Positions 1,362-33,700 of a DNA stretch of 34,742 nt are shown here, piece by piece (the first letter of the stretch is position 1; every line of letters begins with the position of its first letter). This DNA is from a virus, in the IMG/VR virus record IMGVR_UViG_3300000930_000030, positions 1 through 34,742 of that record. The stretch is one strand, 5' to 3'. The notes under the pieces were generated by a model. That model was not told the origin of the DNA. It worked only from the letters and a program-made list of their open reading frames with translations, and ran no database searches. Both the position numbers and the translations under genes were made by a program.

Positions 1362-3158
1362 ATGGCTACGAAGCTGAACATAACAGAATTAGATTTTGCT
1401 AGTAACAAGCAGCAACTGATTAATTATTTAAAAAGCCAGTCGCAATTTAAAGATTATGATTTCGAAGGTTCCAACTTAAATGTTCTTTTAGATGTGTTAT
1501 CATATAATACATATCAGAATAACTTTTATACCAATATGGCAATCAATGAAATGTTTCTTGACTCTGCGGTATTACCAAACTCGGTTGTATCACATGCAAA
1601 AGAATTAAATTATTTGCCAAGCTCAAGGAAATCTGCGAGGGCTTCAGTAAGAGTTACTATCCGTGATACTACAATTACAGGTCAAACAATTACGATCCCG
1701 CAGTTTGCAGCATTCAAGGCTTCTTTCCAAGGAGAGAATTATGAATTCGTTACGGATAAAGCGTATGTTGCAAAGAAAACAGAACCAGGTGTATTTGTTG
1801 CAGACAACATTGAACTCTTTGAAGGACAAATGCTAACAAGCTTTGAACGTGAAGGTTATTTTGTTGATGAAGATGGCATTCTTACAGTTATTCTTTCAAA
1901 CGAAAACGCTGATATTGATTCTCTCGAGGTATTTGTTGACGCCGAGTTTACAGAAGACGCAAATATATTTACTCGCAAAAACGATATCTTTGGAGTCGGA
2001 CCTGAAGATAAAGTATTCTATGTAGAACCATATTACGATGGCAGATATAAAATTTATTTTGGTAACAACGTGTTTGGTGTACAGCCTGATGAATACGAAG
2101 ATATTCGTGTTAAGTATAGAATTTGTTCAGGAGCTGAAGCAAACGGCGCAAGCGTATTCACAATTCAAATTACTTCAACAGGTACAACTGAAGTTGAAAC
2201 AATACAGGCGGCACTCGGCGGTGCAGACTCAGAGTCATTAGAAAAAATCCGTTACTTTGCTCCTAAGGCTTTACAAATTCAGGAGAGAGCTGTAACAACT
2301 TCTGATTATGAAGTATTACTTAAACAGCAATTTCCAGAAATTAAAGCAGTGTCAGCATACGGTGGAGAAAATTTAAATCCTCCACAATTTGGCCGTGTTG
2401 CGATTTCAGTTTATTTAGGAGAAGCTGAAGAAACCTTATCAAATACTTTGGTAAATACGTATCTTGATTATTTGTCAGATAAGACTCCATTAGCTATTGA
2501 ACCAACATTTGTTCCATCTGAATTTGTGTATGGTAAAATTGCTGTTCGTGTCAATTATAATCCAAAGCTTACTACAAAAAATTCTGATTTTATTGCGCAG
2601 TTGGTTAGAGACACAATACAGGCCTACTCAGAAGGAACATTAGATAACTTTAATACTACCCTAAGGCTATCAAACCTGTCCTCTAACATCGATGCAGCTG
2701 ACGTATCTATAACTTCAAACGCTATGACGGCGAAGCCGATTATTGAATACACACCAGATCTTAATATCAAATCTAATCCTATATTTAAATTTGGTACACC
2801 ATTAGTAAGGCCATATCCGTTCCGTGAAACGAATGGATTTTCAGAATATAAACCATCTATTGTAAGTGGACAATTTTCAGTAGATAATGTTTGTGTATAC
2901 TTACAGGATGATGGCATCGGAAACATGCAATTAGTTACTAGTGATCTTTCTAATCCACAAATTATTGATCCAACTGCCGGTACTGTTGACTATGATGCAG
3001 GCGATGTAAAACTAATTAATTTTAGAACCGACGGATTTACTGGCTCTGCTATTCAATTTATTGCCACAACTGTTTACGATGACATTGCTGCGCCAAAAGG
3101 TAGAATTTTTGCAATCCGCGACGACGACGTAGAAGTAACATTAAGAGAGACTGAATAA
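1362..3158 (+). CDS. 6: Baseplate wedge subunit gp6
   Basis: This 598-residue protein resembles T4 gp6 (660). The N-terminal 90 residues contain the diagnostic stretch SYNTYQNNFYTNMAINEMFL followed by LPNSVVSHAKELNYLP, typical of gp6/gpJ proteins. The middle contains ERAVTTSDYEVLLKQQFPEI (about residues 310-330), the J-like domain signature. gp6 dimers form the continuous ring at the heart of the T4 baseplate wedge and drive its conformational switch, with gp25 and gp7 as direct partners; those genes flank it here. The ATG at 1362 follows a purine-rich AGAGAGGA and lies one base after the gene 25 stop, so translation is probably coupled. The C-terminal 100 residues are beta-rich. No frame disruption was seen. 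Confidence 0.93.
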   Translation: MATKLNITELDFASNKQQLINYLKSQSQFKDYDFEGSNLNVLLDVLSYNTYQNNFYTNMAINEMFLDSAVLPNSVVSHAKELNYLPSSRKSARASVRVTIRDTTITGQTITIPQFAAFKASFQGENYEFVTDKAYVAKKTEPGVFVADNIELFEGQMLTSFEREGYFVDEDGILTVILSNENADIDSLEVFVDAEFTEDANIFTRKNDIFGVGPEDKVFYVEPYYDGRYKIYFGNNVFGVQPDEYEDIRVKYRICSGAEANGASVFTIQITSTGTTEVETIQAALGGADSESLEKIRYFAPKALQIQERAVTTSDYEVLLKQQFPEIKAVSAYGGENLNPPQFGRVAISVYLGEAEETLSNTLVNTYLDYLSDKTPLAIEPTFVPSEFVYGKIAVRVNYNPKLTTKNSDFIAQLVRDTIQAYSEGTLDNFNTTLRLSNLSSNIDAADVSITSNAMTAKPIIEYTPDLNIKSNPIFKFGTPLVRPYPFRETNGFSEYKPSIVSGQFSVDNVCVYLQDDGIGNMQLVTSDLSNPQIIDPTAGTVDYDAGDVKLINFRTDGFTGSAIQFIATTVYDDIAAPKGRIFAIRDDDVEVTLRETE

Positions 3159-5799: not shown

Positions 5800-7185
5800 A
5801 TGGCAAAGCAAACAATTGGTGTAGGGCTAGCGGCTAATGATGGTGGCGGGGATCCGTTACGATCAGCCTTCGTCAAAGTTAACGAAAACTTTACAGAACT
5901 TTATAATTCAACTGCCACAATACCCACAGCGCTTACAGATTTGGGAATAACAGACGGAACTAGCGGTCAAGTTTTAACAACTGATGGCGCAGGCGCGTTT
6001 ACTTTTAGTACCGTATCAGGTGGAGGCGGTGGCGCAACTACATTGGGCGCATTAACCGATGTTAGTGCTACAGCACCTACTACAGGTCAAGTATTAAAAT
6101 GGTCTGGTACTCAGTGGGCTCCAGATACAGACGCAACTGCAAGTGGTGGTAGCGGAATTGCTCTAACTGATTTGAGTGTTGCAGCTGAGCCGTCGGCATC
6201 AGGAAATGGCAGCCTTGCTTATAATAACGGAACAGGTATATTTACATATACTCCTCCGGTTATTCCAGCTGACTTAAACGATTTAGGAATATCAGACGGA
6301 ACTAACGGTCAAGTTTTAACAACTGATGGTGCAGGTACCTACTCATTTACAGATGTGTCAGGCGGCGGCGGTGGAGGTTCCTCGACCTTTAATGCATTAA
6401 CAGAAATTGCGTTGGCTGATCTTGATGTTCATGATATTGCCTTGCAGGCCAAAACAAAGTATATTGTAACTCATAGCGGTAGCTCATCTTATAAATTTGA
6501 TACTCACGGGCAAACTGATAATCCAACAATTTATGTTAGAGCTGGAGAAACCATTGGATGGGATTTAACATCAACATCCGGAGCGCATCCATTTGAAATT
6601 AGAGACAATACTAATAGTGCTTATAATATTGGTTTAAGACATTACGCGTTTGACGGAACTAAATCTGAAGGTCTTAGCGCGCAAGGAAAAACATCAGGAA
6701 CTCTTTATTGGAAAGTACCTAACACTCTTAGTGGTACATACAAATATATTTGTACTAGCCATCCAAATATGGTAGGCGATATTATAGTTGAGGCAGAAGC
6801 TGGTACAGGTGGTCTGAATACACGCGTTTCTACAAACACTCTTAACGGAGGAATGATTGCAACGCAAACTGCAAACTTTGATCTTGCGGCGGCAAAAACA
6901 TTTGTTCTATATTCAATTGAAGTATCAGACGCAGCCTGGGTAAGGTTATACACTGACGCTGCATCAAGAACGGCGGATGCTTCGAGATTAAGAGGTAACG
7001 ACCCAGCGCCTGACGCAGGAGTTATTGCCGAAGTAATTACCACAGGGAGCGAAGTTGTTAATTTTGCTCCAGCAGTTATTGGTTATTGCACCACAGGCAA
7101 TACACTTCCGGCCGCAATCACAAACGACACTGGCGTAACTTCAAATATTCGTGTTACGATAACGCACTTAAGCTTAGAGGCATAA
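5800..7185 (+). CDS. Fibre-like virion protein with amicyanin-type cupredoxin domain
   Basis: This is a 461-residue protein, started at the ATG preceded by AGGAG at 5789-5793. The N-terminus (VKVNENFTELYNS, about residues 26-38) is typical of marine T4-like fibre proteins. Residues about 40-205 are Gly/Ser/Thr-rich and contain two copies of a DLGI(T/S)DGT(S/N)GQVLTTDGAG unit, each ending in a poly-Gly run. Residues about 213-334 resemble a type I copper (plastocyanin/amicyanin) fold: GAHPFEIRD supplies H263, and YICTSHPNMVGDIIVE supplies C318, H321 and M324. The C-x2-H-x2-M spacing is that of amicyanin. Residues 340-461 are a beta-rich tail of unknown role. No signal peptide is present, so copper would have to be acquired by the virion. 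The role may be electron transfer, metal binding or simply a sturdy beta fold for adhesion; the ligand set is visible, the function is inferred. Confidence 0.75.
   Translation: MAKQTIGVGLAANDGGGDPLRSAFVKVNENFTELYNSTATIPTALTDLGITDGTSGQVLTTDGAGAFTFSTVSGGGGGATTLGALTDVSATAPTTGQVLKWSGTQWAPDTDATASGGSGIALTDLSVAAEPSASGNGSLAYNNGTGIFTYTPPVIPADLNDLGISDGTNGQVLTTDGAGTYSFTDVSGGGGGGSSTFNALTEIALADLDVHDIALQAKTKYIVTHSGSSSYKFDTHGQTDNPTIYVRAGETIGWDLTSTSGAHPFEIRDNTNSAYNIGLRHYAFDGTKSEGLSAQGKTSGTLYWKVPNTLSGTYKYICTSHPNMVGDIIVEAEAGTGGLNTRVSTNTLNGGMIATQTANFDLAAAKTFVLYSIEVSDAAWVRLYTDAASRTADASRLRGNDPAPDAGVIAEVITTGSEVVNFAPAVIGYCTTGNTLPAAITNDTGVTSNIRVTITHLSLEA
5951..5993 (+). repeat. Intragenic direct repeat, copy 1 of 2
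   Basis: These 43 bases recur at 6293-6335 with only two mismatches, 342 bases (114 codons) apart and in the same frame. They encode DGTxGQVLTTDGAG. The near-identity at third codon positions points to a recent duplication or gene conversion within the fibre stalk. Confidence 0.85.
6293..6335 (+). repeat. Intragenic direct repeat, copy 2 of 2
   Basis: This is the second copy of the 43-base unit at 5951-5993 (two mismatches). It is followed, like the first, by a poly-Gly stretch that probably acts as a flexible hinge before the cupredoxin domain. Confidence 0.85.
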
Positions 7186-7186
7186 T

Positions 7187-9844
7187 ATGGAAGATCCAAC
7201 TCTTGAATGGATTATCACTCTTCATAATCATGAAGACTTAGAAGATTTCTATAATGATATGGAAACTCCTGGCGGAAATCTGTTTATTCCAGACAGAGCA
7301 GTTGGCGTTGAAAAAAGAAGATCAATTAGTCGTAACACTCATTACATGTTGACGCCAGCTGAAGCTGCACTTGTTAAACAAGATGAACGTGTTTGGGATG
7401 TTGACATGGCGGACATGATTGAAAATCGCCCAACATACGAGTTTTTAGGTAATTTTAATAAAACAACTTCAGGAGATGCAAATCATATCAACTGGGGTAT
7501 ATTAAGACATACGATAGAAGACAATTTGTCAGACTGGGGTCTTCCTGGAACATCAAATAAAATACGTGATGTAAATATAACAGCATCAGGAAAGAATGTT
7601 GATGTTGTAATTTTTGATGGACACTTTGACCCTTCCCACCCAGAATTTGCAGCGCCTGATACATTAATTAGTCAATATACTAATGGCGCTCTTACAAACG
7701 ACTCATCTAACGGAGCAGTATTTGATAGATCAATTACAGTTCGTGGAATTAAATGTGTTATTGCTGGCGCAGTAGGTGGGCAAACCGCCGTACCTGATGC
7801 CTGGGCGCTTAAAACAGCAAAAGCTATTACATTACTTATTGACCCAACATATCCTTTAATTAATAAAAGTCAACAAATTAAACTTATTAAAACATTAGAA
7901 GGTGCAGCAGGAACTACCCACGCAGGATTACCTACGGCACAAAGAGTTGCTTGGGGTGGTGGTGCTTCATATTCACCAAACTTTTTAACAGACTCAGGTG
8001 CTGCTCAATATTCAGGTTATCAAAACTTTTTAAATAATAATGTTATGGACGATATGGTATGGTATAGAAATACATCAGGACCAAATCCGCCAACGAGTGA
8101 TAGAGACATTGAAGAAATTATTGAACACTTGTTCCATACAATTCATAACTTTGGTATTCCAGGTGCAGTTCCTGGAAGTGAAACAGAAGTTCCTATGCAA
8201 TCTTTAGGACCGATACTTGAAGGCAATCCTAGTTTTTCTTGGACAACTACAGAATTACACCTTGCAATGAAAGAAGCAATTGATGCATCTTTGTATGATC
8301 CATCTGGTTATTCTACAGATTGGGCAACAGATGCTGATGCAGCTATGGTTGCATATAAAGAATATACTTATTTAGTTAATTGGTCAATGTGGGATATGAG
8401 TCAATTCTGGGAAAACGAAAGTCTTGAAACTGAATGGTCTGATACGTTAAAAACACCGGCAGGTATGTTAGCAAATAACCCGTTGGGTCATGCACTATTT
8501 AAAAAATACTTTGAGCCAGTTTTAAGTAAACCTGATTTTGTAGTATTACAAGATATTTTTAGAGATAATGACGCCGGCCCAGATTATTATTTTGCGCAAA
8601 CAAACGGTGCTTCTAGAGTTAAACAAGTTAATTGGTTCCAAAACGATATTGGTTCAGGAACTGGCACTTACGTCTATACTCCATATATTGATGCTGCTTA
8701 CGCAGATAACAACGGCGACGGAGTTCCAGATCGTACCGATGACAACAATCACGGATGCCACGTAGCTGGTACAGTTGCCGGAAATAAACAAGGATGGGCT
8801 CGTGATGCAAACATTTATAACATCAGTATTTATGGCACAAACCAAAACTTCGGAACAAATGGTTTAAGTTCATCTACTTATTGGGATTACGTACGTGCAT
8901 GGCATAATGCTAAGACGGTAAACCCTGCAACTGGTAGAAAAAATCCTACAATCACAAATCATAGTTATGGGTCATCCCAAACGCTTCGAGCGTATACTGG
9001 AAGTAGTGGGGCGGTTTACAGCCTCCCTGAAAAAATAGAATATAGAGGAACTGAATACGATAAAGGAAGTGCTTTAGTTGAGACTGATTATACATCTCGT
9101 GGTATATACACAACCGACGATACGCCAACAGTTCAGGCATATTTTACATCAAGGTTTGCAGATATTCAAGATGCAATAGATGATGGGATTATTGTTGTAG
9201 CCGCGGCCGGAAACGATCGTAATAAAATTACTAACAGTACTGACCAAGATTATAATAACAAAGTATATTGGCCTTATACGTTTTTTGGATTTGACTATGA
9301 AGCGACAGTTTACACTCATAGAGGTACAGGTTCTGCAGCTGGTAAACCAGAAGTAATTGTTGTTGGAGCAATGAGTAATGACACTGACGAAAAGAAAGCA
9401 GAATTTTCAAACACAGGTACTCAAGTTGATATCTATGCAGCCGGTGAAACAATTCAAAGTTCGCTAAATACAAATCAGTACGCATCTTATGGGCCATATA
9501 CTGACTCAAGAGATAGTAATTACGAAGGCGCAAAATATTACGGAACATCTATGGCTAGCCCGCAAGCAGCTGGTGTTTTGGCTATCTTAGCTGAAAGTTG
9601 GCCAAACATGACTCAGGCCGAGGCACAGCAATGGATAATTGATAATGCTTCCGACGATAAGATGTTTGATAGCGGAGCTGACAACCCAATGGACTTAACA
9701 AGTTTACAAGGCGGCCCAAATAAAATATTAAGATGGATTAACCAAAGACCTGAAGAAGGTTTTGCATATCCACAAAGAAATTTTAAACCACGCCCAACCA
9801 CAGGCGCAGTTTATCCTCGAACTAAAATTAGAAAAAGAGGCTAA
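7187..9844 (+). CDS. Subtilisin-family (S8) virion protease with large insertion
   Basis: This is an 885-residue protein whose catalytic residues are all visible. VVIFDGHFDPSHPEF gives D144, NNHGCHVAGTVAG gives H522, the oxyanion Asn is N676 in VVAAAGNDR, and YGTSMASPQAAG gives S788. In ordinary subtilases Asp and His are a few tens of residues apart. Here residues about 159-474 are inserted between the strand after HPEF and the KQVNW strand that normally follows it. The insert contains an EHLFHTIH motif (E313, H314, H317, H320). Residues 507-515 (DNNGDGVPD) look like a calcium loop. The usual HGTH is HGCH. Residues 1-140 resemble the N-terminal part of subtilase-containing structural proteins of marine T4-like phages (HINWGILR). 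There is no signal peptide. The ATG lies one base after the cupredoxin-fibre stop, so the two are probably translated and assembled together. It could mature fibres or digest host surface protein. Confidence 0.88.
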   Translation: MEDPTLEWIITLHNHEDLEDFYNDMETPGGNLFIPDRAVGVEKRRSISRNTHYMLTPAEAALVKQDERVWDVDMADMIENRPTYEFLGNFNKTTSGDANHINWGILRHTIEDNLSDWGLPGTSNKIRDVNITASGKNVDVVIFDGHFDPSHPEFAAPDTLISQYTNGALTNDSSNGAVFDRSITVRGIKCVIAGAVGGQTAVPDAWALKTAKAITLLIDPTYPLINKSQQIKLIKTLEGAAGTTHAGLPTAQRVAWGGGASYSPNFLTDSGAAQYSGYQNFLNNNVMDDMVWYRNTSGPNPPTSDRDIEEIIEHLFHTIHNFGIPGAVPGSETEVPMQSLGPILEGNPSFSWTTTELHLAMKEAIDASLYDPSGYSTDWATDADAAMVAYKEYTYLVNWSMWDMSQFWENESLETEWSDTLKTPAGMLANNPLGHALFKKYFEPVLSKPDFVVLQDIFRDNDAGPDYYFAQTNGASRVKQVNWFQNDIGSGTGTYVYTPYIDAAYADNNGDGVPDRTDDNNHGCHVAGTVAGNKQGWARDANIYNISIYGTNQNFGTNGLSSSTYWDYVRAWHNAKTVNPATGRKNPTITNHSYGSSQTLRAYTGSSGAVYSLPEKIEYRGTEYDKGSALVETDYTSRGIYTTDDTPTVQAYFTSRFADIQDAIDDGIIVVAAAGNDRNKITNSTDQDYNNKVYWPYTFFGFDYEATVYTHRGTGSAAGKPEVIVVGAMSNDTDEKKAEFSNTGTQVDIYAAGETIQSSLNTNQYASYGPYTDSRDSNYEGAKYYGTSMASPQAAGVLAILAESWPNMTQAEAQQWIIDNASDDKMFDSGADNPMDLTSLQGGPNKILRWINQRPEEGFAYPQRNFKPRPTTGAVYPRTKIRKRG
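7661..8608 (+). other. Inserted domain within the subtilase (unknown fold)
   Basis: Codons about 159-474 interrupt the protease between its Asp and His motifs. The insert is largely helical, rich in Trp/Tyr/Phe, with DDMVWYRN, a conserved-looking IIEHLFHTIHNFGIPG segment, and paired NWSMWDMSQFW aromatic residues. The clustered Glu and three His could bind a metal, but the order (E-H-x-x-H) is not the standard HExxH. I do not recognise the family with certainty. Confidence 0.6.
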
Positions 9845-9880: not shown

Positions 9881-11533
9881 ATGACAGAAATTCTAACTAC
9901 AAAATATAAAACAGATTTGCTAAGATTATTTTATAATGATTTAGCATCTAATGAATTCTATGTTTTTGTTTCTTCGCTTACAACAGATCCAACTTCACGG
10001 GTTTCAGCGGCTAATACTAAAGTTTCAGAAATACAATTTTTAGATAATGTTTTATTCGGTAAAAAGATTTTAACATCTGATACCAAATTTATGATTAAAT
10101 ATTATCCGTGGCAAGAAGGCCAAGTATTTGTTCAATACGATGACAATACAGATTTAGAAGACCAAAAGTTTTTCGCAACTGTTGGACCAAACGTTAATGA
10201 CACTGGCGATTATAGAATTTATAAATGTTTAAATAATAACAACGGTGCTAAAGTTACAAGTCCTCCACCTTTTGTTGCATCAGACGCGAATCAGATTTAT
10301 GAAACAGCAGATGGTTATGTTTGGAAATATATGTTTGCTTTAACTCAATCGGATTTTGAAGCATACAACGCTATTGGCTATATTCCAATCGGCGGTGCCT
10401 TTGAGGTAGATCCAGTTGCGTCTAACCCGTCTAATTTTACAGGGTCTGTAGTTGACCAAATCTTAATTACAAACATAGAAGCCAACCAAGGATATTTTAG
10501 TGTTACGGGAATGAATGTTGCCGAAGCACCTGATAACGCTGGCTTAATTATTTGCGATGATAATTCTTTATCTGAAATTGCAAACTATTATGCAGGAATG
10601 ACTTTATATGTAACTGACGGAAACGGCGTTTCGTATGTCAGAAGAATTACTTCATATAATTATAATTCCATTGACGAAACCGGCGAATTCACTGTTGTAT
10701 TAGATACAGATAATCCACGTCTTCCTGGCGCTGCAAAAAATGGAACGGCGGCTGTGTATCCTAGAATTGAAGTTACAGGTGATGGAACAGGAGCAACCGC
10801 TATCCCGGTAATAAACAATAATGGAACCATTACAAAAATTAGAATGATTAACGCAGGTAGTGATTATACTCGTGCAAGTGCTGAAATTATAGATCCACTA
10901 TACGATTTTGATCCTGAGTCAGAAGCAAGCATTGAAGTACGCGCAACCCTTCGCCCAATATTATCTCCAAGGGGTGGTCATGGATCAAACCCAGTGGATG
11001 AATTTAAATGTAAACATATTCTTCTTTACGGTTATGTTACAGAAGCAGATAACAATGCAATTGGTGCAACAGGTAGTTATTCACAACTTGGTATTATCAA
11101 AGATCCTGAGTTTGATGCTATTTTATATCCTACAGACGGTCCAAATATTTTTGACAACAGACTTGCGATTGTTACTAACGATATTGCAAAGGCTGTATCC
11201 GCTGGAACTGTATTAGAGCAAATAGATGTCAATAACGAAGTAATATTTAGTGCTACCGTTCATGAACTTGATTACTCTGCAAACACAATATATCTTGATG
11301 GGTATATGGGACCTTATGCAAATCAGCCTGGATCTGATATTGCACTTAGTGAACTTTATCCGTTAACGACTCCAACAGGTCAGACAATTAATATAAATAC
11401 ACCAGTAGCAGATAATATAACCGAATCAGCGTATAAACAAAGAACCGGAGAAGTGTACTTCATGGAAGATTTATTTCCTCTTACACGTAACAACTCCTCC
11501 CGTGAAGAGTACAAACTCGTGCTAGAATTTTAA
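9881..11533 (+). CDS. 8: Baseplate wedge subunit gp8
   Basis: This 550-residue protein matches the gp8 family over its N-terminal 170 residues: NEFYVFVSSLT, YPWQEGQVFVQYDDNTD, YRIYKCLNNNNGAKVTSPPP and TADGYVWKYMFALTQSD. gp8 is a dimeric wedge protein that bridges gp7 and gp6 at the baseplate periphery in T4. T4 gp8 is 334 residues; the extra ~200 residues here include a beta module with GDGTGATAIPVINNNGTITK and GSDYTRASAEI (about residues 299-332) of the sort seen in marine phage homologues. The C-terminus (TGEVYFMEDLFPLTRN) fits the family ending. It lies behind a perfect late promoter box, separating it from the upstream insert. An AAAGAGTGGAAG stretch precedes the ATG. Confidence 0.9.
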   Translation: MTEILTTKYKTDLLRLFYNDLASNEFYVFVSSLTTDPTSRVSAANTKVSEIQFLDNVLFGKKILTSDTKFMIKYYPWQEGQVFVQYDDNTDLEDQKFFATVGPNVNDTGDYRIYKCLNNNNGAKVTSPPPFVASDANQIYETADGYVWKYMFALTQSDFEAYNAIGYIPIGGAFEVDPVASNPSNFTGSVVDQILITNIEANQGYFSVTGMNVAEAPDNAGLIICDDNSLSEIANYYAGMTLYVTDGNGVSYVRRITSYNYNSIDETGEFTVVLDTDNPRLPGAAKNGTAAVYPRIEVTGDGTGATAIPVINNNGTITKIRMINAGSDYTRASAEIIDPLYDFDPESEASIEVRATLRPILSPRGGHGSNPVDEFKCKHILLYGYVTEADNNAIGATGSYSQLGIIKDPEFDAILYPTDGPNIFDNRLAIVTNDIAKAVSAGTVLEQIDVNNEVIFSATVHELDYSANTIYLDGYMGPYANQPGSDIALSELYPLTTPTGQTININTPVADNITESAYKQRTGEVYFMEDLFPLTRNNSSREEYKLVLEF

Positions 11534-17159: not shown

Positions 17160-17999
17160 ATGGCAAAACCTGGATTAGTACAAATTAACACCACGCAAAC
17201 GTTTCAGAATTGGTTAGATAAAACCAACGAAATGGTTGACTTATTTCAAACATCGGTAGTCACGGCATCAGCATTAGGTGATACTACTGTAGGAGACGCT
17301 GCATTAGCAGGAGATTTTACTGCTGCTAATATTATTGCTGATACTCAAATGAAAACAGATAGTTTGGCGCCGTATTCTCCTGGAGCAGTTATTGGAATTA
17401 ATGGAGAAATAAGTGTAGTTTCAGCAACTGAAAAAGTAGCTGCAACTCTTACTCACGCAGCCGATGGACCAACTTTACGATTTACTGATTCTACAATATC
17501 ATGGGATATTGGATTTAAAGATAACAGTACTAATAACTTTCTTATTAATACAGGAATAGGAGCGTCAAAGTTTGAATTAACTCCAACTGGTACTCTTACT
17601 GTTCCAAACCTAAATGTGACTGAAAGTTTTTCAACAACCGGAGACGTTACTGCAAACAACGTCTTTGCAACGAATGACGTTATAACTAAGTATACCACCT
17701 CTGATGAAAGATTAAAAGATAACATAATCAAGATTGAAAATCCATTAGAAAAAATGGATGAAATAAATGGATACACCTTTAACTATAAAGACAGCGGCGA
17801 AGTTGCAACCGGAGTTATTGCACAAGAAATAGAAAAAGTACTCCCGGGCGTTGTTTACGATGTTCATTCTGACAACGGCGAAACGTATAAAGCCGTTAGG
17901 TATGGTAACATTGTTGGGCTTTTAATTGAAGCAATAAAAGAATTAAAGGTAGAAGTAGAGGATTTGAAAAATGGTAAACTGGTCGACCCTCCCAAATAA
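17160..17999 (+). CDS. Tail fibre protein with C-terminal S74 intramolecular chaperone
   Basis: This is a 279-residue protein. The N-terminus (INTTQTFQNWLDKTNEMVDL) looks like a virion-attachment helix, and residues 40-175 are a beta-rich, Gly/Thr-rich shaft with ...TTGDVTANNVF, which usually precedes the chaperone. Residues about 179-275 are the Peptidase_S74 / endosialidase chaperone domain: TSDERLKDNI, YTFNYKDSG, TGVIAQEIEKVLP, then a C-terminal helix LIEAIKELKVEVEDL. The self-cleavage dyad is S181 and K186, so cleavage before S181 would release a ~99-residue chaperone after trimer folding. The protein is short for a complete fibre, so it may be a tip or spike. Its end overlaps the next gene by 29 bases. 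Confidence 0.88.
   Translation: MAKPGLVQINTTQTFQNWLDKTNEMVDLFQTSVVTASALGDTTVGDAALAGDFTAANIIADTQMKTDSLAPYSPGAVIGINGEISVVSATEKVAATLTHAADGPTLRFTDSTISWDIGFKDNSTNNFLINTGIGASKFELTPTGTLTVPNLNVTESFSTTGDVTANNVFATNDVITKYTTSDERLKDNIIKIENPLEKMDEINGYTFNYKDSGEVATGVIAQEIEKVLPGVVYDVHSDNGETYKAVRYGNIVGLLIEAIKELKVEVEDLKNGKLVDPPK
17957..17962 (+). promoter_or_regulatory. Ribosome binding site (AGAGGA) inside the S74 gene
   Basis: AGAGGA lies eight bases before the ATG at 17971 and inside the preceding fibre gene. It decides the start of the overlapping glycine-rich gene and supports genuine overlap of the two reading frames. Confidence 0.6.
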
Positions 18000-19742: not shown

Positions 19743-22700
19743 ATGTCAAAGATTTCAGAATTAGGTCCGATTACAGGCGCCAATACTAGAAGCGAAGACC
19801 TTTTTGTTATTGTTAACTTAGTACAAGGCGATGACGGTACAAAGAACATTAGTCGTTATGAACTTGTAGAGGCAATCCAATATGAAGTGTTTACAAGGAT
19901 AAACATTACTGGTGGTACAATTTCAGGTACTATTCAGACTAACAACATTATGAACGAAAACGTTATGAATGATAACGAGTTCAATGATGGTACCATTAAC
20001 CAATCAACATTATTTGACGTTACGATAATTGGCGCAACCGCCAACGCAATGATAATTACCGCGTCTGAATTTAATGACAGCACTGGTAATAACGACGTAT
20101 TTACATATTCTACAATTGATAATTCGCAAATCTTAAATAGTACAGCGAACAACATAACTATGACTGCGTCTGCAATTACAGGTTCTGATTTCTCAGACGG
20201 AACTGGTAACAACAACGTCTTTACTAACACAACAGTAGAAAACATTACTATTGAAGGCGGTACTGCCAATAACCTAACAATGACTGCAATCACAATAGAT
20301 AATGTTGTGATAACCGACGCGTTGATTTCAAACAGTGATATCCGCGATACAGATTTAGATAATGTTGTTATTACAAATTCACAATATGCAAATGGTACAG
20401 TTTATGATACTGTAGTATCTAACTCAACTATTGAAAATTCAAATATGATAAACGGTACAGGCAGTAACATTGTCTTTACCGATCTTACAATTTCTAATTC
20501 TGCAATTTCAACATCAGACTTTAGCGATGGCACTGGTAATAATAACATCTTTACCAATACAACTGTTGACCAAAGTTTAATTCAAAACTCAGTGATTGCC
20601 AACACCACATTTGAAGGCGCGCTGAACGATGTTGATATTACTAATGCAAGGATTTCAAGTACAACTTCTGATGGTCTTGGCCAAGTTAAGTCAACGATTG
20701 AAGATTCTATTGTTTCAAACTCAACTATTGAAGACTCAGATCTCGTTGACTTTGATATGGATCTCCGCAAAAAGTTTCAGCCTGAAATGGATGAAGACTC
20801 TTATTTTGCTATTAAAAACGCTAAGACTGGCGAAACTGAGCAAATCACATATCGTCAGTATTACGATGAACTTTCCAAATCAACAGAAAACGCATTAAAA
20901 GTATATGCTTCTGTTAGCGGTGATGATAACAACCCAGGAACGATTTTACAGCCAGTAAGAAACCTTAAAAGAGCTGCAGACATTGCTCTTGAAAAGGCAG
21001 GCGGATCATACGATCGTAATGATATTAATAACGCGGTTCACATTTCAGTTGGACCTGGTGTTTACTTTGTTGACGAACCAATTTCACTTCCTGATGATTG
21101 TGCTATGACTGCAGAAGCTGGTCAGTACGCAACTATTATTCGTAAGAAACCAGGTTGGGAAAGAACAAACGGTATTCAAGTTGGATCAGGTTGTTATGTT
21201 CAAGGTTTTGCATACATGAACTTTGAGGTTGACAACTTTGACTATCCTGAAGGCGGTTTTGCAATTGCATATCGCCCTGGTGCAAAACTGAGAAGATCTC
21301 CATATATTCGAGATAGTTCACAACTTTCAAACTTTAACCGTCTTGATGTTGAACCGCCTTTACAGCCATTTAACTCAAAAGGTACTATTGCTGACTTAGG
21401 TTTACAACTTATAATGGAACCAGGGCATAGTGCTGAAGCATTGTTTGCTGAAGACGATCAAGTTGAATTTTCAAACGGTGCAACAGGATTTGTTTCTTGG
21501 ACAACTGATATTAATTCAGAGCGCGAACTTTATGTTCGTAACATTAAACCTTGGGGTTCTGTCAAAGCTGGCATGACCTTTATGACACAGCAAGGTGCAA
21601 CAGGTACAATCCAAACAGTTGGTATTGATGACTTCCCTAACAGATTAGTTGGCCGTGGTGGCGGTTGTTTGCTCGCAGACAGAAGAGTTGTGGATCCTGA
21701 CTCATTATATATTTACGTTCTTTGCTTCGGCTTTACTCCTCGTACACAAAACGGTATGGGTTATGTCGCTAGAGACGGCGCTGGTGTTAACGGGATTGGT
21801 TCATTGTCAATCTTTGTTCGTACTGCGTTCTATGCATTAAACGGCGGCCAGATGACCTTGAACAACTCAGGTACTCAGTTTGGCGATATCTCCATGAGAT
21901 CAAAAGGTACAACTAATGTTGTTCAGCCATCTTCAACAAGTGCTACTTTACTCGGTAACACTGTGTTTGCTCAAGCGATTACTGATAATAAAGATGCAAT
22001 TATTGAAGACATGGTAAGTTACTTGAATGCTAATACTGCAAACGGTGGTCTTGGTTATCAAGGATATGACTCAATGAAGTGCCGTAGGGATACTGGCATT
22101 ATTATTGATAACGTAGGATTTGATGTTGCTCTTGATACAAACTATTGGGGTCGTCTGAACGGAATTACATATCAGTCGCCAATTTCGTATGTGGTTGTTG
22201 GCGAACAGCTTACCGAAACTGCAGGAGCAATTGAGCATCTTCAAGGAGATATTAACTATGCATTTAGAAATGCTGATGCAAGTGTTAATACTCGAGTCGA
22301 CAGATCGCTTGACGAAACAATTAACATTCTTAACAACGGTGTAGAAAATCAAAGCGATCTTGTCTTTGCTGATACCGGTGTTGAAGCAAGAACAAATGCT
22401 CGTGAATTAATTCAAGATAACCGTGAACTTATTATTAAAGGAATGGTAGATTGGATTGATAATAACGATGAATTCTTTGCTTATGATAGTAATAAATGTC
22501 GTAGAGATATTCAAGAATATATTCTTCCAGCAACAAAGTGGGATATGGTTCTTGACACAAATTATAACTCAGTTACAGCAGGTAATGCGTATTACTTTAA
22601 ACAGGCAAAAGTTTCAATTGAAAACCAAAGAGATGAAACTGTTGGCTCGTTTAAATATTTAAGAGACATAACTGATACATTAATTGATGGAAATACTGCA

Positions 22701-25700
22701 TTAGGTTCTACAAGACTTTACGATAAATTTAATCAAGTCATTGACATTCTTGATAACAAAGGTGATAAGTTTACTCCAACAAATGCATCTTATGATGGTA
22801 CAACTGGAGAGTTTATAATTACAATTGCGAACCACGGTTTGACCGTCGGTCGTTATGTTACTCTCATGGATAACAGCTTTAAGTTTACTTGTGAAGCTGA
22901 TGGAAACACAACTGTTAAAATTCACCCAACAAAAGCTGACCCAGCATATCGCGCGTTGCTGCCAATTACCGCAGTGACAGCTAACACAATTACAATTAAT
23001 GTTGGCGACGGCGGTGGATATAAAGGCGCACATACATTTGTGAGCGCAGAAAAAAGTTCAGTATCTGTTTTAGGTACTTCAATTACGTTTAGTGATGATG
23101 CTTCAATTTCAGAAGACAAGAGAAACGCTCGTAAGTTGTTACAAGCCAACAGAGATTACATCCAAGACTATATGATGACTTGGGCTGAAAACGAATGGTA
23201 CTTCTACGATAGTAAAAAATGCCAGCGCGACACAAGCGAGTATATCTTACCAGCAGTTAAAAGAGATATGGTAACAGGTTCAACGTATAACGCAATCCAA
23301 GCTGGTTTTGCATATCGTACAGGAACTGGTAAATTCCTTATCGACAACCAATTGTCTGAAACTATCGGAGCGTTCTCTCACTTGAGAGACGAAGTGTTGG
23401 AAGATCTTACAGATCCGGTTGCAGAAAAACATGCAACTGACTCATTCAATACTCTTATTGATATTATGCAAAACTCAGGTAGAAAATATACTATCACGGA
23501 TGCATCATACGATCCTGTAACCGGTGTTCAAGTATTAACAGTTGGTGATCATGACTTTGCAACTGGCGATGAATTCTTGATGGAAACCGGTGCTGTTACA
23601 TTTAGTTGTGTTAACACTGCAACTAACGACACGGTTGAAATTGCACATCCAAGAACTACAGATCCATGGCATAAAACACCAATTACAATTACAGGTATAA
23701 CTGATACCACTATTACTGCAAACGTCGGTAATGCAGGTGGATACACTGGAGCCCATACATTTGTAAGAGGATTACTCAACGGTGTACAAAAACAAGAACC
23801 ACTGAATAACGCATTTACTCCAATTGACTCATCATATGATCCATTAACTGGTATTACAACGTTTGACTTTGGGGCAAGCCACGATTTCATAATCGGTGAT
23901 ACAATTATGATTGACCCAATGTCAGTAACATATAGTTGTGATAATGGAAATGGCGTTGAAGAAGCAACATATCCAAGACTTACAGATCCTGCATACAACG
24001 TTGCATTAACAATTACTGCAGTATCTGCAAACACAATTACAGTCAACACTGGTGATGGAAATGGTTACACAGGAGCTCATACTTTTGTAGGTTCTAAACC
24101 AAATGCAATTAAGAAAGCATCGTTCTATACTGGATCGTTTACTCCAATTGATGCAACATACAGCGCAAACACTGGACAGCTTGACGTTAAAATCGGTCAA
24201 CACAGTTTACCTGTTGGCAGATGGATTAAAATCAAAGGAGAAGGAATTACCTTTACCTGCGATCATGATAATAATTTAACTGAACATGCGTATCCAAGAA
24301 GAACTGATCCAGCGTTTAAACAGATTGTTAGAATTACAGACGTATCTGACGAATGGATTACAGTTAACGTAGGAAACGGTGGAGCAGGTTATCAGTATTC
24401 TTCAAACACCGCTCATACCTTTGTATCATCTCTGCCAAATGCAATTGATACAAACGTTTCATACTTTACTGACGCGGCTAAGATTACAGATTGGCTTACA
24501 CCAACAACTGCAACATACGACCCAGTAACAGGCGATATGGTTGCAACTGTTGCAAACCACGGCTTAACAACAGATGACCATGTTGAAATGAAACCACTTG
24601 GTATGACATTTAGTTGTGACCCAGGAACTGGAGTTGCAAACGACTCCAACCCAAGAATTGGTGAACCAAACTACGGTAAGCCACTCGCGGTAACTGCAAC
24701 TACAACAAATACATTTACCTTTAACGTAGGTGGTGCAGGTACTTATACTGGTGCCCATACATTTGTAAGTGCTGAAGCCGGCGCAATTATGAAAGTTAGC
24801 TCAACAACCGAAGGCAGAAACGCCGCGGACCAATTGAGAGCAAACAAAGTATTCTTACAAAACGAAATTGGCGCATACATGGAAGCCAATTACTTTATAT
24901 ACAATAAAGATAAGTGTATGAGAGATACAGGCTATATCTTGAACGCAGTAGCAAGAGATATCGCAACTGGATCAAATGTCAACTCAATTTATGTAGGACA
25001 AGGATATCGTATTGGTACAGTAGGTGCTAATAACGTTATCAATAACCAGCTTACAGAAACTGTTGGCGCGATCACATGGCTCAAAAATAAAATTGCAACC
25101 GAAGTCTTAACAGATGCAACTGCAATTGCTCGCTCAAACGCCGCTTTTGATGATATCATTGATATTATGCAAAACGGTAACGCAAACTCAGATGCAATTG
25201 ATTTTGGCGTACAAGCAACTGAGCTTGACGCATATCACGCAAGAGTTTCGTTACAAACAAATAAACAGTTTATCCAAGAAGAAGTTATTGGTTGGCTTGC
25301 AACAAACTACCCTGGATTTGTTTACGCATACGATGCTTGTAAGCGTGACTTAGGAGTATTCATTGATACTGTATCATACGATATTCAACACGGCGGTAAT
25401 GCAGCTACAGTAAATAACACAAGACTGTATTTTGAAAATGCAATGCCAGTTTTGGCCGATGATGAAATTGTTCCAACTTCAGAAGCATATAACTTTATTG
25501 CTAATTTGGTAGGTCAAGTTATTCGTGGCGAAAATGTTATTGAGTTAACATCTAACACGGCACAAGTACTAACAGCTGAAGCATCCTATACACCAACTGA
25601 CGCAACATATAATCCTGTAACTGGAATTATGGAAGTCACAATTGGTTCCCACACATTTGCTGAAGGTGACAGACTTTCAATTGACCCAGCAGGAATTACA

Positions 25701-28700
25701 TTCAGTTGCGCATTCAACGGCGGCGGTAATGACTCGCATCCAAATGCAAATGATCCAAATTATAAAGGAACATTTATCGTAACTGCAAATACTGCGACTA
25801 CTGTAACAGTGAATGCAGGTACGGCTGGAACAAATACAGATGCACATACATTTGTAAGCGCAACAGCTGATGCTGTAAGAGCTGCAAATATGCCTGAAGC
25901 TTATACACCAACTGATGTATTCTACGATCATATAACAGGTCGTATGACTATGACACTTGGAAACAGACATAGGTTTGCTGCCGGCGATTGGTTGATCTTT
26001 GACGAAGGCGCAATCACATTGTCTTGTAAAGATGCAAACGGTATTGTGTTCAACCTAGCGCATCCAAGACAGACAGACCCAGTATGGAATACACCTGTAT
26101 ATATTGACGAAGTTACCGCAGATACTATAACTTGTAACGTTGGCGCTGCAGGAGTTGATAAAGTACATACATTCGTAAGTGCTACAACAAATGGTGTAAG
26201 AAGGTCTATTCAACCTGCTGTGGCAAATAGAGCAGTTAAAATGTTTGAAGATATCGGTCAAACATTGCGTAACAATGATGGCGAAGTGGTTGCTGTTACT
26301 GAAGCAATCTTTACACTGCCAGCAACATATGGTATTGCGTTGATTGCTGATGCTGATAGAGTTTGGGGAAATAAAGCAAAATATCAAACTGAAATTATTG
26401 ACCACATTACCGAAACATATAACGGCCTTGGTTACGATGTATCTAAATGTCCACGTGACGCAGGATATATTGTTGACGCGGTTGCAGAAGATATGGAATA
26501 TGGTGGAAATGCTGCAACAGCATGGGCTGCCGCTTACTATTTTGAGAACGCAATCAACGTCTTACCTCTGTATCAAAGAGCACCAACTAAGGCGGCGTTT
26601 GAACATCTAGCAAACGTTGTAGAGGACATTATCCAAGAAACTGCAGTGACACCAACAGCTGGAAACGTGACGGTACAAAACACCTCAGGGACTGCTGCTA
26701 GCGCTGCTACTGCATTAACTGCTAAGAACCTTGTAAATGTTATCTCTTCAATCTCTGATGATAATTCACCAGTCAATGTTCCTGCTGTAGTTGATGCTCC
26801 ATTAATGGAACCAAGCAGAACATTCGCAAGAAAAGCATTGCAGAAAAACCGCGAGTTTATTCAAGAAGAAGTTATTAACTTTATTGACGAGCAGTACTTT
26901 ACAATCAACGAAGGTAAGTGTGCAAGAGATGTTGGATTTATTATCGACGCAGTTAAGAGAGATGTTCAGACAGGTTCTGATTATAACTCTAAGTACAACG
27001 GTAAAGCTTATCGTGTAGGTAACCCACTTGCAGAAAAAGTAATTGAAGAACAACTTGCAGAAACTATTGAGTCTCTGAAATATGCTCAACGTGATATTGA
27101 AGCTCAATTAACAGGTACAGCACTGTCTCGTACCACCGCAGCGTTTAACAATGTTTATGATGCAATGACTAATGATTATACCGCTGACGGAACCAACTAC
27201 GAATATGGTGACTCTTGGTATACATTAGGCTCAGTATCTACAGAGCAAGGTATGCAGTTTAATAGAACCTTCCTTCAAGAAGAAGCAATTGCATGGATCA
27301 CACAAGAATATCCATCTTTAGTATACGATCAAGCAAAATGTCGTAGAGACACTGGGTTTATTGTTGACGCATTGACTTGGGACTTGATGAACGGTAGTAA
27401 CACTGCAACTCGTAACGTGGCGAAACTATATTTTGAAAACGGAGTACAAGTTGGTCTTCCTGCTTCTCAAAGAGCTGAAGCCGCAGCGTGGTATACTCAG
27501 TTAGCAACTTTGGTTGAAGCAATCCTTCTTAAACAAACTGTAACGCCAACAAGCGGTAACTTAGAAAATGTTTCACAATCGTTCGGAACAGTTACTGCTG
27601 CGGTTGCACAAGAAGCACAAGACTTAGTTACAATCATTGCTCGTGCAGTTGCAGAAAATACTTTAATCAATATGCCAGCTGAAGTTGAGCCGCGCGGTTT
27701 AACAGGAGCAGGCGCAGCAGGTTACATTGTTGATGTAGCAATCTTTGATACTCGCAAGCCAATTATTCAAGCTGGTGTTGTTAACTATCTCAAAGAAAAC
27801 TTCAACTATCTTCAGTACGATCAAGACAAATGTCGCCGAGATACTGGATTTATTGTTGATGGTATTGCTCACGATATTCAGTACGGTGGTAACTCAGCTA
27901 CGGTCGGTAACGCAGGTTTGTATTTTGCCAATGCGGTATCAATCTTGCCAATGAAACAAAGAGATGCAACTAAACTCGCGTTTGAACATATGGCTGAAGT
28001 AGTTAGAAGAGTTGTTAGAAACGAAGAAGTTGATATTAAAACCGGCGAAGAATTTACTCCAACCGACGTTGTTTATGACGGGGTTGCTGGTACAATGGTA
28101 ATTACTCTTGGCGCAGGCCATGATCTTAAGGTTAACGATTATATCCTATTTGCTCCAGAAAGCATTGTATTAGATTGCGGTGCTTCGGTTGAAATCTCTC
28201 ATCCACGAGTTCAAGATCCTGCATATCAAACTCCTTGGAGAATTTCTGCAAGAACAGCAACAACTATTACACTGTCTGACCTAAAAGCTAATTATGCTGG
28301 AGCTCATACATTTGTAAGTGCATCACTCAATGCAATTGCTAAAGTTATCGGTAATACTGAAACTCAATGGAAATCATATACACCTGCAAGAAGATCTATT
28401 GCAAATGAAGCAAAAGCACTCGCAACAATCATTGCAGATATTTCAGATGATGCAACACCAGTTAACTTGCCGCAAATGATCCAACCAAAAATGGATTGGG
28501 TACCTGCAAGATTGGTTGCAGAAAAAGAACTAATTGAGAACAACACCGTTGAATTGTCTACCGATATGATTAACTATATCTCAAAAACATATAACGGTAT
28601 CAGTTATGCTAAGGAAAAATGTCGTAGAGATGTTGGAGGTCTTGTTGATGCAATTTCACACGATGTTCAATATGCAACAAACTACGCAACAATAAGAGCA

Positions 28701-30362: not shown

Positions 30363-30784
30363 TGGCATACACAACAATTACAACATCACAGGCGCCCGAC
30401 GCAAAACCGGTCGCTTCCAATTTAGAAGTAACTACAAATTGGCAAGTCATCATTGAGGTACCAGACTACGAAGTTCCAGAACTTGTATTTGGTGGATCTA
30501 CTACAGTTGAAACTGGGGTAGGCGAAGTTATTTCCCCTTTAATGTTATGTAATTATACAGCCAATACGGTTTATGTAGATTTACAATCATTTAGATTTAC
30601 AACCGGGGATTATTTTTATATTTTAAGAAACTTTCCAGTACCTGGATTTGATACTGTACCAATTCCAATCAACGGCCAATTCTTTAAATCAGGCGATCGT
30701 TTAGAAGTTAAGTGTGACACTAACTTAGCTCTACACTCTACGTTGTCCTTTACATTAGGTCAATCGGAGGAGGATGACGTATAA
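30362..30784 (+). CDS. Small beta-rich virion-associated protein, function unknown
   Basis: This is a 140-residue protein predicted to be mostly beta strand: TTNWQVIIEVPDYEVPELVF, VISPLMLCNYTANTVYVDLQ, YFYILRNFPVPGFDTVPIPI and a final LHSTLSFTLGQ with an acidic tail. It has no signal peptide or catalytic motif. Its ATG overlaps the stop of the giant gene by one base (TAATG), and its own stop overlaps the collagen-like gene the same way. Stoichiometric, coupled translation with the two fibre genes suggests a connector, cap or trimerisation partner between long fibres. The family is not recognised with certainty; similar proteins occur in marine T4-like phage fibre regions. Confidence 0.72.
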   Translation: MAYTTITTSQAPDAKPVASNLEVTTNWQVIIEVPDYEVPELVFGGSTTVETGVGEVISPLMLCNYTANTVYVDLQSFRFTTGDYFYILRNFPVPGFDTVPIPINGQFFKSGDRLEVKCDTNLALHSTLSFTLGQSEEDDV

Positions 30785-33700
30785 TGGCTTTTAATTCTCT
30801 CGCAGGCGGAAAAATAATAGGACAGGGTCGGCCTTTACCTACTCCTATTGCCTTAGATCCAGCACCGTTTAAAGGTGCATTAGTTTATGGCGATGATGGC
30901 GTCGTTTATGTTTCAAACGGAACAGCGTGGGTTGACGTTGGATCCGGTGCTCAAGGTACAATCGGTATACAAGGTAACGACGGTATCCAAGGGATCCAAG
31001 GTACGTATGGTCCAGGGTTTACAATCCTAGGATCGGTTCCTGACGTTGATGCGGGAGGAAATCCACAAACAACACTTACTGCTGCGTTTCCATCACCAAA
31101 TATCGGTGAAGGCGTTATTGATGAAGCTGACGATGAGCTGTGGATTTGGGATGGCACAAACTGGGTTAACATTGGTACGTTCCGCGGCGTTCAAGGTATC
31201 CAAGGTAGTATAGGTCCACAAGGCGCGCAAGGTACAATTGGTGAAGAAGGTATTCAAGGTTCACGCGGTGATAGAGGTGTGCAAGGCGTTCAAGGATTGC
31301 AAGGTACACAAGGTCTCCAAGGATTTAGAGGTTTCCAAGGTACGCAAGGTATTCAGGGTGTTCAAGGCCCGCAAGCATTCCAAGGTGTACAAGGTATCCA
31401 AGGTTTTGTTGGTAACCAAGGTGTTCAAGGACCACAGGCGTTTCAAGGTGTACAAGGTATCCAAGGATTTGTAGGTCTTCAAGGCGACACCGGTGATTTT
31501 GGTGGATTGACTTTTGATTACACATATGATACTACAACAACAGATGCAGACCCAGGAACTGGTATTATCAGATTTAATAATGTTGCACTGAACAGTGTTT
31601 CATTGGAAATGTATATTGACGACGAAGATGATGCAGCCATTAATGTTATGGATGCTCTCTTAGGAGAATATGCAGGAATAGGTGGAGCCGTTAAAGGTTA
31701 CTTTAAAGTTATAAACGGCGCTGACGTTACTAAATATACTACTTATCGTATTGACTCAATCACAGATGCCACCGGGTATTGGAGATTGGGCATTACATAT
31801 TTGTTTGGTGAAACAAGCTACGCAAATGGAGCCGACTTACGAATAACATTTACTCGCAACGGTGACCAAGGTGTCCAAGGTATTCAAGGTCCACAAGCAT
31901 TCCAAGGTGTACAGGGTATGCAAGGTCCTCAGGCCTTTCAGGGTATCCAAGGTATTCAAGGTTTCACTGGTTCTCAAGGAGCTCAAGGTTTACAAGGCTT
32001 TATCGGTATTGATGGCGGTTTCTCGTTTGACTTTAGCTTTAATGCTTCAACAACACCAAGTACGGATCCTGGAGTTAACAGTTGGAAACTTAACAACTCT
32101 AACCCAACAACCGCAACAATATTAACGATTGATGATATTCCTTTAGATCAGTTTACAACAGAAATTGACGCGTTTTATGATTTCATTGACGGTCAGGCTG
32201 CAACTCCTAAAGGCTACTTGGTAATTAAAAATAGACCTACAGGTGCTGGCGGTATCGGCGGCCACCATTTTGTAATGTATGAGATTACAGATTGGACATG
32301 GGACAGTGGAGCTAAAAACTGGGGTTACTTCAACGTAGTTTATATTGAAGGTAATGTTACTGATTGGCAAACTGTTGCGTCAACTCACGGGACAAAAACA
32401 CATATTTCATTCGTACCGGCTGGACCAATTGGTGTTCAAGGTACACAGGGTATTCAAGGCGACTTTGGCCCACAAGGTATACAAGGTATTATAGGTCAAA
32501 CTGGTACACAGGGTGTTCAAGGTATTCAAGGTGACTTTGGTCCGCAAGGTATTCAAGGATTTAGAGGTGATACTGGATTACAAGGTGCACAAGGCATCCA
32601 AGGTCTACAAGGCGTGCAAGGACCGCAAGGGGTTCAAGGAGTACAAGGCGTCCAAGGTACGCAAGGTGTTCAAGGTATCCAAGGTTACACCGGTGTTTCT
32701 GGTGGAATTACATTTACTTATAATTACAACACGACTTCAAATATCGCAACAGACCCAGGTTCGCAAATATTCAGATTGAATAATAATACTTATTCTTCAG
32801 TAACTGAAATCTTTGTTGATGCTGAAGCAGGTCCGGGTCCAGTTGACTTATCAAGTCTTTACAACAGTTATGACGCTGTCACAGGACCTTATAAAGCAAT
32901 TGTTAGAATTGTAGATCCAGCAAACACAGACGAATTTTTACTCTATAAAGTTAAAGATGTTACAGATAACACTGGATGGTTTACACTTTCGGTTGAATAT
33001 GTTACTCATAACGGTATGTCATATACTGATGGCCAAGCTACTTTATGGACATTCAGCGAAGTTGGCGCTCAAGGTGTTCAAGGTCCACAGGCATTCCAAG
33101 GTGTGCAAGGTATCCAAGGTGAAATCTTACAAGGTGTTCAAGGTTTCACTGGTGACACAGGACTTCAAGGCGTTCAAGGTATACAAGGTGACTTTGGACC
33201 AGCTGGTGAATTTGGTGGCATGACATTCTCTTATGTGTTTGACACTGACAATACTGCTACTGACTTTACAGGATTTGGTAAAGTTAAATTTAATAACAGC
33301 AACTTAGCACTTGCAACAGCTATGTATGTCGATGACCGCGATATTAACTTTGTTGATATACAAGCGTTCCTTAGATCTATGGATGAACCAACATCTGCAG
33401 TTAAAGGGTATGTTAGAATTATTGACTCATTCACAACATCAGACTATGCTGCATTTGAAATCACTGAAATAACAGAAGCTGGTGGATATTTCCAATTTGA
33501 TGTATCATTCTCAGTTGCTTCACAAACTTCATGGAATGCCGCGGAGCCAGTTAAACTAACATTCTCAAGAACTGGTGATGCAGGTACGGATGGCGCACAA
33601 GGCGTTCAAGGTATCCAAGGTGATGCAGGTACAGGTGGTATTCAAGGTGTACAAGGTAACCAAGGTATAACTGGGTTTGGATTTCAAGGTATCCAAGGTA

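Follow-up and report, generated by a model that had tools for sequence, protein, structure and literature searches.

A putative zincin-like domain inserted in a phage baseplate subtilase and carried between virion proteins as a DNA cassette

In a marine phage with a baseplate cluster of the T4 type, the subtilase gene is interrupted between the codons for its catalytic Asp and His by a conserved domain of about 315 residues, which leaves the catalytic residues of the protease intact and recurs in a wide range of phage and bacterial proteins. The window analyzed here is the entire stretch of 34,742 nucleotides of the IMG/VR record IMGVR_UViG_3300000930_000030. Our interpretation is that the inserted domain is complete and folds on its own, that it belongs to an extracellular, so far undescribed family of zincin-like (PPEP/LF-type gluzincin) metal-dependent hydrolases, and that it serves as a mobile accessory module; we consider the chances for and against this to be evenly balanced. 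A broader scenario is put forward tentatively: an active family with a rewired E-[H/E]-x-x-H...E site, which in phages is a cassette entering virion proteins, including the core of an active subtilase (a two-protease chain), and to which secreted proteins of Bacteroidota, Verrucomicrobiota, Gammaproteobacteria and Actinomycetota from the sea also belong.

The interrupted subtilase and its locus

The host of the insert is a protein of 885 residues (7187..9844, plus strand), whose assignment to the subtilases (S8) is based on the open reading frame, the Pfam match and the synteny of the baseplate locus. The Peptidase_S8 domain (Pfam: PF00082) matches residues 503-827 with E=1.2e-31, and the score of 110.6 bits exceeds the curated cut-off of 21.8. 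The protein possesses the complete triad as well as the oxyanion Asn of the family, all encoded on the plus strand: Asp144 in DVVIFD144GH (7616..7618) and, identified in aligned columns of the relatives, His522 (8750..8752), Asn676 in AAAGN676D (9212..9214) and Ser788 in GTS788MASP (9548..9550). In the same alignments, these four residues are intact in all 38 distinct subtilases that carry the domain in the loop between Asp and His (D-H loop) and in 80/80 un-inserted ones; the five subtilases with a C-terminal fusion of the domain all retain His, Asn and Ser. Because every inserted relative has kept them, the insert does not replace a dead protease, and this reading is excluded. Judging by these residues, the subtilase of the window is very probably active, as an earlier note on this DNA had supposed; nor do the subtilases without insert show the degenerate catalytic residues which that note had considered as evidence against its claim.

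The borders of the insert were set by alignment with four un-inserted cyanophage subtilases (Sf-FR1, S-CREM1, S-H38 and S-RSM4). In these proteins HPEFAV is directly joined to RV.QYNWF, whereas the window protein contains about 315 extra residues between ..SHPEFA (residue 155) and GASRVKQVNWF (around residue 473). The insertion of 315 residues that the earlier note had placed between Asp and His is hence real, but its coordinates shift from 7661-8608 to approximately 7655..8602 (plus strand). According to this alignment, the homologs and the AlphaFold2 model, the putatively zincin-like EHxxH domain comprises residues ~157-472.

Profile matches identify gp25 (944-1360) and gp6 (1362-3158) in the T4-type baseplate cluster. 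Directly upstream of the subtilase lies a gene for a gp9/gp10-like baseplate tail-fibre connector (5800..7185, plus strand; PF07880, E=3.2e-4; phrog_677, E=1e-34), and downstream one for a gp8-like baseplate wedge subunit (9881..11533, plus strand; phrog_438, E=2e-48). In S-H38 and S-CREM1, the gene of an un-inserted subtilase has an annotated tail pin gene on one side and, at a distance of two genes on the other, one for a baseplate wedge protein.

The surroundings of the gene deserve some separate observations. The gp9/gp10-like protein includes a cupredoxin-like segment (residues 242-331, ~6523-6792), whose match to PF00127 (E=0.0023) is below the cut-off of that family; like type-1 copper sites, it has a His (in GAHPF) followed by Cys, His and Met (in CTSHPNM). 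Segments of the similar form HPxxF/HPM...C..H..M occur at the C-terminus of a subtilase of Marine virus AG-345-P14 (L005, 7968-10139) and within the 1721 aa protein of Syn33. Just upstream of gp25, the protein encoded at 33-926 ends in a Peptidase_M15_3 domain (residues 208-290, E=8.7e-15) and is possibly a virion-associated endolysin. The tail fibre protein encoded at 17160-17999 carries a C-terminal Peptidase_S74 domain (intramolecular chaperone; E=4.1e-15), and beyond the genes for baseplate and tail fibres lie very long open reading frames (19743-30362, 3539 aa; 30784-34740, >1319 aa).

Carriers of the domain and its movement as a cassette

Scans of 33 domain members against Pfam, NCBIfam and PHROGs returned nothing credible, including no notable Pfam or NCBIfam match that would place the domain in the ATLF/PPEP family (PF07737). 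The earlier note had held that the insert differs from the usual protease-associated domains, and this is borne out. Sequence searches of the PDB yielded chance matches only, and no plasmid matched the domain. A tblastn search of 50,697 phage records revealed homologs of the insert with 40-45% identity in phage proteins other than proteases, namely the 'baseplate wedge' proteins (1713-1721 aa) that Syn33 and S-RIM2 encode between gp9 and gp8, and a gp7-like protein of S-B43. Scans of IMG/VR provided 132 and 260 related stretches, and 40 were found in 84,980 prokaryote genomes; in further genome sets, few bacteria beyond the seed genomes proved to have the domain.

The dataset comprises 196 open reading frames with the domain. 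Of these, 83 are subtilases with the domain ahead of the part containing His and Ser, eight have it after the start of this part, and 105 possess no such part by profile, the latter being proteins of bacteria, virion proteins of other kinds and a number of truncated subtilases. In one of the eight (L061), the domain separates the motif of the oxyanion Asn from that of the Ser (N-S segment). Three positions within subtilases are thus occupied: the D-H loop, the N-S segment and the C-terminus. The 112 distinct complete domains are divided into 37 D-H inserts, five C-terminal fusions, one N-S insert, 35 domains of other phage proteins and 34 bacterial ones. Most bacterial carriers are short and have the domain as their last part; their N-termini resemble lipoprotein or signal sequences, and InlB-type repeats are frequent. 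A metagenome bin of Rhodobacteraceae (L090, G004) includes two contigs with the domain, one of which is 82% identical to the insert of the window and lies inside a subtilase. Both contigs are probably phage sequences that were binned with a host, so that the bin may give a clue to which host it is.

At the DNA level, the domain travels between phages as a sharply bounded cassette of ~0.9 kb. The clearest pair consists of a D-H insert (L070) and a C-terminal fusion (L079), which share 903 nt with 97.5% nucleotide identity; outside the cassette, other alignable stretches are mostly 66-77% identical, and the flanks are ~68% identical or cannot be aligned. Two further loci (L085 and L053) are 86% identical over 924 nt with no match elsewhere, and the domains of Syn33 and S-B43 are 90% identical over 954 nt. 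The cassette starts with the codons of xEYxN and ends with those of SGYVxD, and in the C-terminal fusions the stop codon follows immediately. On the tree of the 112 distinct domains, which was obtained by a quick search with SH-aLRT support only, the D-H architecture changed at least seven times when well supported branches are counted. Since near-identical copies are found at different positions, these changes are more than an artefact of the tree. This is a clear case of an enzyme-like domain that passes, as a cassette with precise borders, from one structural gene of phages to another, unrelated one, and whose movement can be traced at the nucleotide level.

The conserved cluster, its sister family and the predicted fold

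At the center of the domain is a cluster that the earlier note had described as conserved-looking, and the homologs confirm this impression. The putative metal-site helix E310-xx-E313-H314-xx-H317-T-x-H320 is encoded at 8114..8146, with E313-H314-L-F-H317-T318-I-H320 at 8123-8146 of the window; E392-Y393, with E392 as putative third metal ligand on the next long helix, is encoded at 8360..8365. Further invariant residues are His245 (7919..7921), Tyr262 (7970..7972) and Glu416 (8432..8434); all these features are on the plus strand. Altogether H245, Y262, E310, E313, H314, H317, T318, G323, E392, Y393 and E416 are identical in 112/112 distinct homologs, a count that is partly biased, as two of the scans used peptides of the cluster itself. 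H320 is kept in 110 of the 112 and replaced by Gln in the remaining two. A profile search independent of the motif was carried out on 299 genomes of one flavobacterial family, nine of which matched: EHxxH is present in at least four of the six full-length matches, two of these four having Gln in place of H320. Weaker relatives read EHLLHTVTN and EHILHAVTG at this site. Accordingly, the core of the cluster consists, at the level of these alignments, of E313, H314 and H317, while T318 and H320 appear to be replaceable. With conservation in 112/112 and a dN/dS of ~0.17-0.29 between the insert and its relatives (dS is saturated for the more distant pairs), the cluster is not a product of chance.

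The canonical HExxH is not present in the insert; its place is taken by EHxxH in 112/112 domains and by EExxH in a sister family of secreted proteins (L303, L304, L305, L306 and the N-terminal half of L095). Hence the insert may function in a zincin-like manner, yet it is no canonical member of clan MA. The two families are related according to hhalign (probability 97.5, E 5e-12): the real score of 85.6 compares with 23.7 for the best of 60 column shuffles and 17 for reversed columns, and a subtilase profile used as comparison control found nothing. Besides this profile homology, both families are found in secreted proteins and have Glu, His and Glu at matching positions; in the alignment of six EExxH members, both Glu of the motif, the His and the later Glu are invariant. 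What distinguishes the sister family is the Glu in place of His314 and its absence from the phage carriers examined. Its members are lipoproteins, T9SS-sorted or RTX-like secreted proteins without Pfam family. A second secreted protein with E-E-I-L-H adjoins one weak relative of the EHxxH domain (L300/L303), and members from other genomes read E-E-[IV]-x-H. EExxH and EHxxH domains even occur in one chain, a protein from Opitutales (L095). A flavobacterial locus (L303, 416-3400) contains a tandem cluster of two secreted EExxH proteins and one EHxxH protein.

In gluzincins, H-E-x-x-H is followed by a downstream Glu, and E-[E/H]-x-x-H with its own downstream Glu has the same spacing. Canonical motifs are found next to the domain: in two flavobacterial loci, genes adjoining those of EHxxH domains (L109, 5870-7507; L103, 6106-7470) encode proteins that share the lipoprotein and InlB-repeat front end and contain HEMGH and HEYFH, respectively. 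The former weakly matches ATLF (E=0.0028), the latter M61 (E=0.0022). No profile link was obtained from the domain to these HExxH neighbors (P0009, P0011), nor any sequence-level link to canonical HExxH families. As neighbors of bacterial domain genes, they point in the same direction as the other evidence, toward a hydrolase or peptidase.

The fold was predicted with AlphaFold2 for the insert of the window (pLDDT 89.2, pTM 0.90) and for a domain from Acidimicrobiia (L120; pLDDT 94.0, pTM 0.92). In the window model, the cluster occupies the central part of a helix of 20 residues (model residues 147-166), and E392 is likewise central in a long helix further on (226-244). In the structural comparison with VIA-align, rows 1-30 of the list for the window model and nearly all 50 rows for the bacterial one are zincins or their relatives, i.e. 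PPEP-1/2/3, LF domains, collagenases, lugdulysin and a Bacteroides metallopeptidase. Among the matches listed, the best for the window model is PPEP-2 (Z 7.0, 150 residues, rmsd 4.1) and the best for the bacterial model reaches Z 7.2 (160 residues, rmsd 4.5); none attains Z 8, and values of about 7 lie in the range of possible chance. Foldseek alone found no significant match in the PDB and BFVD. We nevertheless regard a zincin-like fold as probable, because the match lists are coherent over two different proteins, the putative site residues occur in the order of those of zincins, and a sister family exists. From spacing, helices and the sister family, we infer that E313, H314, H317 and E392 correspond to the residues of HExxH...E. 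The spacing of the M16 inverzincins, HxxEH...x76...E, is close to ExxEH...x77...E of the insert. An 'inverzincin' reading of the M16 type was not adopted, since the structural lists contain no M16 enzyme and the insert has Glu as first residue of its motif.

Function, alternative readings and known systems

According to the model we favor, a metal would probably be held by E313 and H317 of one helix and by E392 of the next, at the places of HExxH...E, with H314 (Glu in the sister family) at the position of the general base. The domain would most likely be a peptidase that acts outside the host cell on a host-surface or extracellular protein. Displayed at the phage baseplate beside a still active subtilase, it would provide one polypeptide with two proteolytic centers. 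In this view the domain is an accessory module, whose ~0.9 kb cassette lands in subtilases, at the three positions described, and also in further proteins of the virion. Should the domain prove to be an active metallohydrolase, a zincin site tolerates the replacement of the first His by Glu and of the catalytic Glu by His, and genome annotation based on HExxH would miss the family; the tip of a marine phage tail would then digest protein by two different mechanisms. Metal binding, catalysis and substrate are part of this prediction, and without the canonical motif catalysis could be altered or lost.

The main rival is a role in binding: a zincin-derived, non-catalytic, metal-stabilized module for adhesion that helps the baseplate or tail fibre to hold the host surface or extracellular matrix. 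The domain does move among tail and baseplate proteins like receptor-binding modules, it has no canonical HExxH, and its better structural matches include domain I at the N-terminus of LF (residues ~30-253), which is not catalytic. However, nine residues of the putative site and its surroundings (E310, E313, H314, H317, E392, Y393, H245, Y262 and E416) are invariant despite identities down to ~43-50%, which is typical of an active site and not of a variable binding face, and stand-alone secreted bacterial proteins carry the domain as well. We consider this alternative unlikely, though it deserves serious attention. Of the three roles suggested in the earlier note – second enzyme, metal-binding targeting domain or built-in regulator – the first, with a predicted metal site, has the best support, namely from the zincin-like models, the invariant E/H/H/E and the secreted stand-alone homologs of bacteria; binding or targeting retains some probability.

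The third role is disfavored. An insert between D144 and H522 could gate, activate or process the surrounding subtilase, and in CspB of Clostridium a jellyroll interrupts the subtilase domain and stabilizes the enzyme (PMC3567191). Yet the domain is not primarily a regulator of subtilases, because virion proteins that are no proteases also carry it, and many of them do; it is likewise found in bacterial proteins without a subtilase. In subtilases it also follows the catalytic Ser or lies between Asn and Ser, and of the related phage subtilase loci, which number in the hundreds, all 80 that were retrieved, those closest to the un-inserted cyanophage ones, lack it. Regulation thus seems improbable to us. 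Slightly more improbable still is a structural or decoration domain that has no enzymatic role and spreads by recombination, its conservation reflecting a metal-stapled core. The carriers are indeed structural proteins of the baseplate, but the charged His/Glu cluster is strictly invariant, secreted homologs exist in bacteria outside phages, and neighbors of the same architecture bear a canonical HExxH. An intein-like element that splices itself out of the protease would fit an in-frame insertion in a conserved enzyme core that is mobile at the DNA level, but we reject it almost with certainty: the models resemble zincins with no HINT structure among the matches listed, and exteins do not flank the domain on both sides in all carriers, as it forms the C-terminal end of many (no C-extein) and in bacteria comes after a signal peptide or lipoprotein sequence.

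Returning to the proposed zincin-like hydrolase, the open-access literature we searched contains no paper with 'EHxxH' and nothing relevant on baseplate subtilases of cyanophages. We found there no description of the domain family, of the E-[H/E]-x-x-H site, or of a cassette whose movement includes the core of an active protease. The closest structures are PPEP-1/2/3 and the LF-type (M34-like) gluzincins, which both models match best, with Z values reaching 7.2 over 150-170 residues. In these, the residues corresponding to the putative metal site appear in matching order, first those of a helix and then a Glu on a later long helix. They differ by H-E-x-x-H in place of E-H-x-x-H and show no detectable sequence similarity to the insert, which is also ~100 residues larger than the PPEPs and has its two site helices separated by an additional helical segment. 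The next best zincin matches (Z ~4.5-5.8) are clostridial collagenases (M9), lugdulysin (M30) and the putative metallopeptidase 4L7A of Bacteroides, enzymes of other families that are similar to the insert at the level of the fold only.

Two elements of the system were already known: subtilases with an inserted folded domain (CspB; PMC3567191) and the shuffling of fragments between phage proteins (PMC10684548). The jellyroll insertion of CspB and the jellyroll extension of Tk-SP demonstrate that a subtilase can stay active with a foreign folded domain that interrupts or extends it, as the window protein very probably does. The jellyroll, however, is a stabilizing domain of ~130 aa with no putative active site, and the passages of PMC3567191 consulted mention no mobility between unrelated proteins. 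In PMC10684548, domain shuffling in phages is described as mosaicism at the protein level tied to host interaction, whereas the present case concerns one sharply bounded cassette with a putative enzyme site, found inside and outside a protease and at several positions.
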